Source: Kiritimatiellaceae bacterium
Lineage (GTDB): Bacteria > Verrucomicrobiota > Kiritimatiellia > Kiritimatiellales > Tichowtungiaceae
Assembly (NCBI GenBank): GCA_013141415.1
Contig: JABFQY010000006.1
Span: 62,001-126,000 of the forward strand
Direction: 5' to 3'
DNA: 64,000 bases
The position numbers and the translations under genes are program-made. Under the pieces are notes generated by a model, which made no database searches, had not been told where the DNA came from, and was given only the letters and a program-made list of their open reading frames with translations. Below, piece by piece: positions 5,287 through 62,162 of the stretch. Positions within the stretch are counted from its first letter, which is position 1, and every line of letters begins with the position of its first letter.

Positions 5287-5357
5287 AACGTAGACGCGAC
5301 GCCCTCGTCGCGTTACTGCCGAATAAAAAAACGCGACGAGGGCGTCGCGTCTACGTT
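5287..5357. repeat. Long perfect palindrome (REP-like family A)
   Basis: Two arms of 28 bases (5287-5314 and 5330-5357) are exact inverted copies around a 15-base loop. Each contains GACGCCCTCGTCGCG or its complement. The same family occurs inside coaB at 60793-60861. The RNA or single-stranded DNA would form a very stable hairpin. Confidence 0.9.
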
Positions 5358-29152: not shown

Positions 29153-29183
29153 ATATTCTCCATCGATTGTTAAAAATAAAAAC

Positions 29184-29231
29184 GTGGGACAGGCTTCCAG
29201 CCTGTCCGGACAGCCATTCTGGCTGTCCTAC
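29184..29231. repeat. Double-hairpin repeat (REP-like)
   Basis: Two adjacent perfect hairpins, GGACAGGCT/AGCCTGTCC at 29187-29207 and GGACAGCCA/TGGCTGTCC at 29208-29228, are bounded by GTG and TAC. It lies between purC and the MNT gene. Confidence 0.8.
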
Positions 29232-29237
29232 TTTCAT

Positions 29238-50256: not shown

Positions 50257-50348
50257 GAGGGCAAGGCTTCTACCGGATATTCCACAGTTTGCAAAGCAAC
50301 AGCATCAGTTATACAAAATTACCTGAATCATCCGTACCGTTTATTCTG

Positions 50349-50411
50349 GTATGTAGTACCGGCTTTAGCCGGAACAGCTTGGGAACCGCCTGAAGGCGGG
50401 ACTACATACCC
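50349..50411. repeat. Double-hairpin repeat, family B, copy 1
   Basis: Outer arms GTATGTAGT and ACTACATAC enclose two hairpins, CCGGCTTTAGCCGG and CCGCCTGAAGGCGG, giving a cloverleaf-like shape. Copy 2 lies about 115 bases downstream. Confidence 0.85.
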
Positions 50412-50463: not shown

Positions 50464-50523
50464 GGTATGTAGTACCGGCTTTAGCCGGAACCGTTGGAGC
50501 CGCCTGAAGGCGGGACTACATGC
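50464..50523. repeat. Double-hairpin repeat, family B, copy 2
   Basis: This has the same arms and two inner hairpins as copy 1 in the same orientation, with a slightly shorter middle. The flank CCGTTTATT before the repeat is shared too, so the unit was probably duplicated in tandem. Confidence 0.85.
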
Positions 50524-59510: not shown

Positions 59511-60074
59511 ATGGAATCGAGCATGGAAGTACTGCTGGCCGCTGAAGAAAAGATGGATAAATGCGTGGAGTTCCTCCACCACGAACTGAGCGGACTGCGC
59601 ACCGGCAAAGCCAGTCCGGGACTGGTTGAAAACATCACCGTTGAATACTACGGAACCACCGCCCGGCTGCGCGATATCGCCAACATCTCAACTCCTGAAC
59701 CGCGCCTGCTGGTCATCAGCCCGTTCGACCCGTCCTCGCTGGGCGCGATCGAAAAAGGGATCAGCGCCGCGAACATCGGCATCACGCCGATCAACGACGG
59801 ACGCCTCATCCGCGTGCCGATTCCGGAAATGAGCGAACAGCGCCGCAAAGATATGGCCAAAATCGCCTCGCGCGCCACCGAGGAACAGCGCATCGCCGTT
59901 CGAAACGTCCGCCGCGACGCCAATGAACTGCTCAAAACGCTCCAGAAGATCAGCAAGATCACAGAAGACGACCGCGACGAAAGCCTCGAAGAAGTCCAGA
60001 AACTGACCGATGTCCGCATCAAGAAAATGGATGACATGCTCGCCGCCAAAGAAAAAGAAATGATGTCTGTCTGA
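59511..60074 (+). CDS. frr: Ribosome recycling factor
   Basis: RRF splits the post-termination ribosome with EF-G. The 187-residue protein has the family length and blocks 'LRTGKASPGLVENITVEYYG', 'IRVPIPEMSEQRRKDMAK' and 'VRNVRRDANELLK' with the C-terminal helix. AAGGAGAG precedes the ATG. Its stop overlaps the coaC start (TGATG). Confidence 0.97.
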   Translation: MESSMEVLLAAEEKMDKCVEFLHHELSGLRTGKASPGLVENITVEYYGTTARLRDIANISTPEPRLLVISPFDPSSLGAIEKGISAANIGITPINDGRLIRVPIPEMSEQRRKDMAKIASRATEEQRIAVRNVRRDANELLKTLQKISKITEDDRDESLEEVQKLTDVRIKKMDDMLAAKEKEMMSV

Positions 60075-60625
60075 TGAAACGTATTCTCATAGGTGTGACC
60101 GGCGGAATTGCGGCGTACAAGGCGGCCAGTGTCGTCAGTGCGCTCAAGCAGGCCGGATACGACGTGCAGGTGGCGATGACGCCTGCCGCCTGTCAGTTTG
60201 TTACGCCGCTCACTTTCGCCGCGCTGTCGCAGAAAGAAGTCCGCACGGAACTTTTCCCGGCGCACCCGACTTCCGACAAAGGCCAGCTCTACCCGCACCT
60301 CTACCCCGCCACTGAAGCCGACCTCTTCGCCGTCCTGCCCGCCACCGCCGACATCATCGGCAAACTGGCCTACGGCTTCGGCGACGACATTGTTTCCGCC
60401 AGCGCGCTTTCGCTCTCGAAAAAGTGCGTCAAACTTTTCTGCCCCGCCATGAACACGCAGATGTGGGACAACCCCGTCGTCCGCGAAAACGCCCAGACCT
60501 TGGAAAAACGTGGCTGGCAGCGCATCGGCCCCGAAGCCGGCCTGATGGCCTGCGGAACCGAAGGCGCCGGACGCATGAGCGAACCCGCCGCCATTCTCGA
60601 AGCGATTAAAAAAGCGCTCGCATGA
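60074..60625 (+). CDS. coaC: Phosphopantothenoylcysteine decarboxylase (stand-alone CoaC)
   Basis: CoaC is an FMN flavoprotein that decarboxylates 4'-phosphopantothenoylcysteine to phosphopantetheine in CoA synthesis. The 183-residue protein has 'ILIGVTGGIAAYKAASVVSA', the catalytic-region 'PAMNTQMWDNPVVREN' and 'GLMACGTEGAGRM'. In most bacteria it is fused to CoaB; here it is separate and coupled to coaB by an ATGA overlap. Confidence 0.95.
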   Translation: MKRILIGVTGGIAAYKAASVVSALKQAGYDVQVAMTPAACQFVTPLTFAALSQKEVRTELFPAHPTSDKGQLYPHLYPATEADLFAVLPATADIIGKLAYGFGDDIVSASALSLSKKCVKLFCPAMNTQMWDNPVVRENAQTLEKRGWQRIGPEAGLMACGTEGAGRMSEPAAILEAIKKALA

Positions 60626-61293
60626 AAAAGGTTCTCATCCTTTCCGGGCCGACACACGAATACTTTGATCCGGTTCGCTTTATCGGCAACGCCAGCTCCG
60701 GCAAAATGGGCAAGGCCCTCGCCGAAGAAGCAATTAGGCGCGGCATGGAAGTCGAATTCATTTCCGGCCCGGTCGCGGAAGAGAATCTCCCCAACGTAGA
60801 TGCGACGCCCTCGTCGCATTCTGACAGCCGGAGAAACGCGACGAGGGCGTCGCGTCTACATATCCAAAAAGTCATCTCCGCCGAAGAAATGCTGGCCGCC
60901 GCGAAAGAAAAGTTTTCCTCCGCCGACTTCATCATCTTCGCCGCCGCCGTCGCCGACTATCAGCCTGCAAAAAAATCAGACGCGAAACTTCCGAAAGTCG
61001 GAAACAGCCTCACGATTGAACTGAAACCGACACCCGACATTGCCGCCACGCTCTGCGCGAATAAACGGAAAGATCAAGTCGCCATCGGCTTTGCGCTCCA
61101 GACGTACGACGGCGAAACCAAAGCCCGTGAAAAACTGATCTCAAAAAATCTGGACGGCATCGTCCTCAATACTCCCGCCACCCTCGGCGCTGAATCCGGA
61201 CTCTTCACCTGGATCGATAAGCAGGGTTTGGAAAACTGGGGTTCACTCGGTAAGGCGGAATGTGCAAAGAGGATTTTAGATAAGTCGGGTTAA
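60622..61293 (+). CDS. coaB: Phosphopantothenate-cysteine ligase (stand-alone CoaB) with an in-frame palindrome insertion
   Basis: CoaB joins cysteine to 4'-phosphopantothenate with CTP. The 223-residue protein has the family opening 'ILSGPTHEYFDPVRFIGNAS', the strand 'SADFIIFAAAVADYQPAKKS' and 'GFALQTYDGETKAREKLISK'. Residues 58-80 (nt 60793-60861) have no match in the family: they are encoded by a palindromic repeat of the type found at 5287-5357 and lie in the loop between 'EFISGPVAEENLP' and 'IQKVISAEEML'. The insert is 69 bases and keeps the frame. The loop lies at the protein surface in known CoaB folds, so activity is probably kept. The small ORF on the other strand overlaps the 3' end. 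Confidence 0.92.
   Translation: MKKVLILSGPTHEYFDPVRFIGNASSGKMGKALAEEAIRRGMEVEFISGPVAEENLPNVDATPSSHSDSRRNATRASRLHIQKVISAEEMLAAAKEKFSSADFIIFAAAVADYQPAKKSDAKLPKVGNSLTIELKPTPDIAATLCANKRKDQVAIGFALQTYDGETKAREKLISKNLDGIVLNTPATLGAESGLFTWIDKQGLENWGSLGKAECAKRILDKSG
60793..60861. repeat. Palindrome of REP-like family A inside coaB
   Basis: The arms at 60793-60820 and 60835-60861 share the GCGACGCCCTCGTCGC core with the intergenic copy at 5287-5357. Two transitions in the left arm still allow G-U pairs in RNA. It is 69 bases in coding terms. Confidence 0.88.
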
Positions 61294-61528: not shown

Positions 61529-61553
61529 GATCTCCCCTTTCTTTTTATGGCGC

Positions 61554-61609
61554 TGACGGAGCCGCGCCCTCCCGTAATTAATCCCAGTGGGTTGCGCTCT
61601 GTCGCAACC
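61554..61609. repeat. RAYT-flanking REP, copy 1
   Basis: GACGGAGC and CGCCCTCC on the left pair with GGGTTGCGCTCTGTC on the right, followed by GCAACC. It lies just after the RAYT stop and is in the same orientation as copy 2. Confidence 0.8.
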
Positions 61610-61610
61610 G

Positions 61611-62162
61611 TTATTCCATCCACCGCAAAACATTTATCTCACCCTGAAACGACCACGCTTCCGGCGTTGTGACCAGCCCTGCACGAACCGGATTGTTCCG
61701 GACATATTCCCATTTTTCACTGTAGCTCTCGCCGTGCCGCAACTGCGTGTCCCAGAAATCATCCTGCCAAATAGGCTGTTCATTTGGTCTTGGCCACTTT
61801 TGAGAAACAAGAGTTTTCCAGAATTTTATCCACTGTTTTAACGACGGATATTCAATAATACCCGGCGTGCAAAAAAAGTGAATATGGTCAGGCATAACAA
61901 CGTATTTACCGACCAACCAGTGATCCGCCGAACGCCATGATTCAATCATCAACCGGTGTACATCCTCATGAGCAAAGATTGGTTTCCGATCTTTGGAACA
62001 AACTGTGACAAAAACAATATTTGAACGGTTCGACATCTCATCAAGCGGAATGTGTGCAGGATGCTTTCGAGAGGAATACGGCGTTGACGGAGCAACGCCC
62101 TCCGGACTCGGGTTCCCGGAGGGTTGCGCTCCGTCGCAACCATCTTTGAATTCATTATCCAT
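61611..62162 (-). CDS. REP-associated tyrosine transposase (RAYT, Y1/HUH family)
   Basis: RAYTs are single-copy relatives of IS200/IS605 transposases thought to spread REP palindromes. The 183-residue frame has the HUH metal motif in 'VVMPDHIHFFCTPG' and 'EYVRNNPVRAGLVTTP' near the end with the typical helix; the catalytic Tyr is probably the one in 'SYSEKWEYVRN'. It is flanked on both sides by REPs of one family. The ATG at 62162 overlaps the gtrA end by eight bases, and the first ~30 codons run through REP copy 2; the ATG at 62036 is the only other ATG, but conserved 'RKHPAH' lies before it. Confidence 0.88.
   Translation of the reverse strand: MDNEFKDGCDGAQPSGNPSPEGVAPSTPYSSRKHPAHIPLDEMSNRSNIVFVTVCSKDRKPIFAHEDVHRLMIESWRSADHWLVGKYVVMPDHIHFFCTPGIIEYPSLKQWIKFWKTLVSQKWPRPNEQPIWQDDFWDTQLRHGESYSEKWEYVRNNPVRAGLVTTPEAWSFQGEINVLRWME
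62086..62141. repeat. RAYT-flanking REP, copy 2
   Basis: GACGGAGCAACGCCCTCCGG pairs with CCGGAGGG and TTGCGCTCCGTC, followed by GCAACC. It is read within the 5' end of the longest RAYT frame. Confidence 0.85.

Follow-up and report, generated by a model that had tools for sequence, protein, structure and literature searches.

The coaB gene of a Kiritimatiellaceae bacterium carries an inserted palindrome in a single permissive loop of the encoded protein, and in this genus the same loop has been repeatedly colonised by separate REPIN families. We analysed a 64,000-nucleotide stretch of the genome (the window; the genome is G000) together with relatives of the organism. The explanation as a whole is likely: the palindrome is a mobile REPIN that was moved by a RAYT transposase and filtered by selection, with permissive sites being reused. 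The features concerned, in window coordinates, are the following.

60074..60625, plus strand: coaC-like gene immediately upstream of coaB (open frame; name from sequence).
60622..61293, plus strand: coaB, phosphopantothenate--cysteine ligase with in-frame insert (open frame; NCBIfam TIGR00521; Foldseek).
60793..60862, no strand assigned: family-A REPIN in coaB with its edges AAY and RTT, here AAC and ATA (edge composition).
60796..60859, no strand assigned: REPIN of family A, consisting of left REP, spacer and inverted REP (inverted repeat, genome copies, absence in relatives).
60796..60818, plus strand: left REP unit of the coaB REPIN, GTAG tetranucleotide and hairpin (sequence; GTAG superfamily per PMC3733652).
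60837..60859, minus strand: right REP unit, inverted, with CTAC at its end (sequence).
5290..5354, no strand assigned: second family-A REPIN of the window, not in any long frame.

The frame at 60622-61293 is identified as CoaB by NCBIfam TIGR00521 (E 8e-48). The AlphaFold2 model of CoaB with the insert has a mean pLDDT of 86.6, and its best Foldseek match is the E. coli structure 1u80 (TM 0.80/0.82). Confidence is lowest around residues 61-80 (block means 53 and 71), and the insert is positioned between strands 43-48 and 79-83. The model thus predicts a preserved CoaB fold with low confidence mainly around the insert, which fits a tolerated loop. Full activity of the insert-bearing enzyme and retention of the peptide by mature CoaB are inferred, with no transcript or peptide data to support them.

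The REPIN proper is a 64-bp inverted repeat (60796-60859) of two inverted GTAG-type REP units, running from GTAG to CTAC, with 25-nt arms that are 92% complementary and separated by 14 nt. Across 28 family-A elements the edge consensus is AAY-GTAG...CTAC-RTT, with A at position -3 in 51/56 edges, A at -2 in 41/56 and C or T at -1 in 55/56. The sequence-only reading had described a 69-base palindrome translated as CoaB residues 58-80. The location and the residues held, and the insert is read in frame as part of this segment (NVDATPSSHSDSRRNATRASRLH). The length held only in part: given the edge consensus, the 69 bases comprise the 64-bp unit plus some of the conserved edge bases. Divisibility of the length by three depends partly on where the ends are drawn, but the preserved reading frame is real. 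The net length gain over insert-free relatives is about 18-19 residues, so that a few bases of the old coaB loop were lost or altered. The AAY and RTT edges mirror each other and do not form a direct repeat, and no target-site duplication of the MITE kind could be established, with the caveat that relatives are too diverged for the empty coaB site to be read base by base. The proposed kinship with a palindrome at 5287-5357 also held, the REPIN there (5290-5354) having arms that are 100% complementary. The family-A core has four exact matches within the window (5298, 5333, 60804, 60838); with up to two mismatches there are six matches versus 1.4 expected, a number reached in 0/100 shuffles. The window contains further palindromes. 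Another GTAG-type palindrome (GGTATGTAGTACCGGCTTTAGCCGG) is found at 50348-50410 and 50464-50488, as a nearby inverted pair and one more copy, and a palindrome of the GTGGGACAGGCTTCC family, apparently the repeats flanking the xseA RAYT, lies at 29181-29234.

The loop was measured in aligned CoaB homologues from the end of the ISGP strand to the start of the AEEM helix. Most knowledge of the genus comes from metagenome-assembled genomes, and its species tree is partly unresolved; the count covers 13 species with a readable loop, G031 being set apart for an assembly gap (NN) exactly at this place. The loop is short (29-33 residues) in seven of the 13 genus species and in all 27 sister-family species, and the coaB segment is therefore an insertion. 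Relatives carrying the same segment without a palindrome, which the sequence-only reading had named as a refutation, were not seen. Long loops are found in G000 (48 residues), G042 (49), G038 (49), G041 (47) and G040 (45), and G032 has a loop of 38 residues with a degenerate insert. The insert belongs to family A in G000 (GTAGACGCGACGCCC), to family B in G042, G038 and G040 (GTGGAAGCGGCATCCCTGCCGC) and to family C in G041 (GTAGGGCGTGCTCGCCGA). Families A and B are multi-copy; family C is rare, with 1-2 copies per genome. Inheritance of one insert by all these species is rejected because different REPIN families occupy the loop. Parsimony on the PriA tree, itself only partly resolved, requires 5-6 changes. 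In one species (L039, 305-964; also L086) the CoaB loop has no insert and a different in-frame insert lies near the C-terminus (DPSKAREALRTQSSDHWERQ).

The family-B inserts of G042 and G038 are identical at 51/51 positions, against 83% and 74% identity in the coaB flanks, a pattern that speaks against simple inheritance. A rival explanation is that inserts spread by homologous recombination, gene conversion or horizontal exchange of coaB rather than by fresh transposition. An identical 51-bp insert with diverged flanks in two species is also expected from conversion, and some inserts are plainly inherited, namely those in metG (G000, G041, G035) and tilS (G000, G042). However, three unrelated families occupy one loop, the flanks of the loop have no repeat homology, and conversion requires a copy already at the site. 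We consider this rival unlikely and retain insertion of mobile REPINs as the preferred reading.

Family A is dispersed through the 2.2-Mb genome. The core GACGCCCTCGTCGC with at most one mismatch has 36 forward and 36 reverse matches, versus 1 and 2 for the reversed control. Although CoaB loop lengths vary slightly, this genome-wide repetition refutes a chance palindrome or ordinary variation in loop length, which is all but excluded. The matches correspond to about 37 elements, mostly inverted REP pairs, with a few single or inside-out. Intragenic copies were tallied from the stretches around family-A copies, with frames read manually; long frames over palindromes that resemble the antisense of real genes (e.g., L124, L129, L131) were not counted. 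At least 16 of the approximately 37 elements lie in frame within recognisable genes: tilS (two), phr, hemL, metG, a HAD phosphatase gene, murC, prmC (two), ligA (C-terminal), an addB-like nuclease gene (three), an ABC ATPase gene (last residues), coaB and priA. One frame is used nearly always. In 14/16 left REPs on the coding strand the translation is VDATPSS or nearly so, in 2/16 it is RRDALVA or similar, and the frame with the TAG stop is never used (0/16). With the two open frames used equally as the null, the one-sided binomial probability for 14 versus 2 is 0.002. The mainly extragenic location usual for REPs is thus not met by family A (~16/37 in genes). That location is a descriptive rather than a defining trait of REPs, and intragenic members are known (PMC3733652).

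Reuse of sites extends beyond coaB. Sites 1 and 2 of tilS, murC, site 2 of prmC and priA are empty or hold other families in relatives, and these are therefore permissive loops that are reused. At the murC site, G000 and G041 carry family A, G040 carries family B and G042 another family, and the site is empty in G033 and G032. Absence in relatives, about 37 copies, at least 16 of them in genes, and the low-confidence loop together support the earlier suggestion of a mobile palindrome that can enter genes and be tolerated as a loop. What the sequence-only reading had missed are the other palindrome families at the CoaB loop, the transposase in priA and the prior description of intragenic REPs (PMC3733652). 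Another possibility is that the hairpin is retained for a host RNA function, such as pausing or attenuation within coaB, since the segment as RNA has a predicted folding energy of -53 kcal/mol. However, most relatives lack the hairpin, others have unrelated palindromes there, and the same element occurs in at least 10 unrelated genes, making such a function very unlikely.

To find the probable mover, we asked which Y1_Tnp (PF01797) gene has family-A REPs on both sides. The only RAYT flanked by family A is the Y1_Tnp at 506428-506661 of contig C3 in G000, with REPs at 506357 and 507058. It belongs to the following gene.

L075:39-3158 (G000:C3:504538-507657), minus strand: priA with a whole RAYT domain in frame.

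In this 1,040-residue frame the Pfam order is PriA 3' DNA-binding domain, Y1_Tnp, helicase and PriA C-terminal domain. Since Y1_Tnp lies amid the PriA domains of one open frame, the RAYT sits in frame within priA. The adjoining family-A REPs are read as NVDATPSSR and RDGGVAST, and the RAYT itself holds a nested REPIN. An in-frame priA RAYT is present in seven genus species (G000, G032, G033, G038, G039, G040, G042; further loci L167-L171 and L173) and in nine sister-family species. RAYT-free species often have a bare in-frame REPIN at the priA linker (G036, G022, G017, G009, G003), and an empty linker of seven residues is found in G002, G012, G021, G005 and G006. In G038 and G040 the priA RAYT is flanked by family-B REPs. 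The two multi-copy families that have hit coaB are therefore families of priA-resident transposases.

Another RAYT-like gene (61614-62162, minus strand) lies directly 3' of coaB, with palindromes near 61551-61610 and 62080-62139, and a palindrome is read through in its own N-terminus. The equivalent place downstream of coaB in G033 also holds a RAYT (C41:3941-4219). As the mover of family A the neighbour of coaB is disfavoured because its flanking palindromes differ, and the priA-resident RAYT is therefore preferred. It remains possible that other RAYTs in the genome act on family A.

The priA RAYT is under purifying selection and its motifs are intact. The HUH motif (MPNHVH or close) is found in nearly all copies, two listed frames having no match to the pattern, and the tyrosine motif YI..NP is present in many. 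The dN/dS of the RAYT domain is 0.04-0.16 in computable pairs, as low as that of PriA itself, with the caveat that dS is near saturation in several of them. The RAYT and host trees are not congruent. The seven genus priA RAYTs form two lineages, one of which is nested among sister-family RAYTs; a topology that unites them is rejected by the AU test (p 1.4e-5), whereas PriA keeps the genus as one clade (100/100). Re-entry at the same site by transfer, or an old polymorphism followed by loss, may account for this conflict.

A further rival holds that the working protein lacks the segment, which would be lost as an intron, an intein or by translational bypass. The coaB segment is inside an essential gene, and its family is found inside many other genes. 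Against this, the segment is in frame without stops, and a frame bias is expected only if it is translated. In the PriA insert, Y1_Tnp is alone and no splicing domain was found in a Pfam scan; an intein there is rejected for lack of the self-splicing Hint domain. Removal is thus very unlikely, and the preferred reading remains that of translated inserts.

Residence in genes is not confined to priA. The genes for the CCA-adding enzyme and a B12-radical SAM protein, xseA, hypF and a few others host related RAYTs in frame (L172, L174-L181, L219-L236), with those RAYTs' own translated repeats beside them. By our own count, roughly five in six RAYT copies within the order are in frames of at least 440 residues. 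In the rest of the class, RAYTs mostly stand alone (about 190-330 residues), and some are in restriction-methyltransferase-like genes (named by sight). Three such cases outside the order (L277, L279, L283) are in frame, seemingly at the same linker and from three families. In the RAYT tree, copies cluster mostly according to host gene and REP family.

REPINs and REPs of the GTAG superfamily with RAYT transposases have been described before (PMC3116915, PMC3733652, PMC2817692). The present system shares with them the GTAG tag, the short hairpin, the inverted pairing of REPs, a copy number in the tens and a RAYT flanked by the same REP. Whereas only 14 of 1,067 core 16-mers overlap genes in Pseudomonas fluorescens SBW25 (PMC3116915), genes here hold about 16/37 elements in frame, and priA holds the RAYT in frame. 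GTAG and CGTC REPs within genes were published in 2013 and are most abundant in Opitutus terrae and Rickettsia conorii; the dimers form 20-30 residues in housekeeping and DNA-repair genes, occur also in Xanthomonas, and in two Xanthomonas species different REPs occupy about the same recB site (PMC3733652). The intragenic placement of the coaB element is therefore not itself new. Translated dimers and, in one case, a shared site are common to these systems and ours; the difference is in the genus-wide reuse, which reaches at least three families at one loop and involves coaB, tilS, murC and prmC, and in the tie to gene-resident RAYTs. Rickettsia palindromic elements (RPE) likewise lie in frame in functional genes, and the coaB element resembles them in residing in an intact one. 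RPE-4 and RPE-6 are CGTC-tagged (PMC3733652), whereas the coaB element bears a GTAG tag instead and is paired with a cognate RAYT. Inteins and homing endonucleases are in-frame mobile genes at conserved sites of essential replication and repair genes, with trees unlike those of their hosts. The priA RAYT is similar in its conserved site within an essential gene and in its tree; unlike inteins, it apparently stays as a domain of the host protein. In the open-access literature searched we found no report of in-frame RAYTs or of multi-family reuse across a genus, and an unseen report is possible. As far as that search shows, genus-wide reuse of loops by several families and whole RAYT genes in frame are new.

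In the mechanism that we propose, the coaB palindrome would be a non-autonomous REPIN inserted in the surface loop between the second and third CoaB strands and translated as about 20 extra residues. Its probable mover would be the HUH/Y1 transposase in priA, acting in trans. REPINs would insert at many places, selection would retain those between genes or in protein loops and linkers in a stop-free frame, and permissive sites would be used repeatedly by whichever family is active. The single-strand mechanism, transposition and expression are all inferred, without transposition, transcript or peptide data.

A bolder reading, towards which we lean only slightly, is that RAYTs of this Verrucomicrobiota-related order live in an intein-like manner, without stops, in genes that are essential or serve housekeeping (priA, xseA, hypF and that of the CCA-adding enzyme), re-enter the same sites in other lineages and seed REPINs in fixed loops, the CoaB loop being an example of a colonised permissive site. 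A RAYT in frame has no stop of its own, so the host gene would not survive a frameshift there, and in-frame residence would thus be a new route of persistence for a transposase. In a phylogenomic study of RAYTs, 'unexpectedly long proteins' were discounted as fusions or annotation errors (PMC6006769), and in-frame RAYTs may account for some of them. Nearly half of the family-A REPs are read as protein, although REPs are named for being extragenic. The repeated use of the same loops by unrelated families serves as a natural map of where essential enzymes tolerate insertions.
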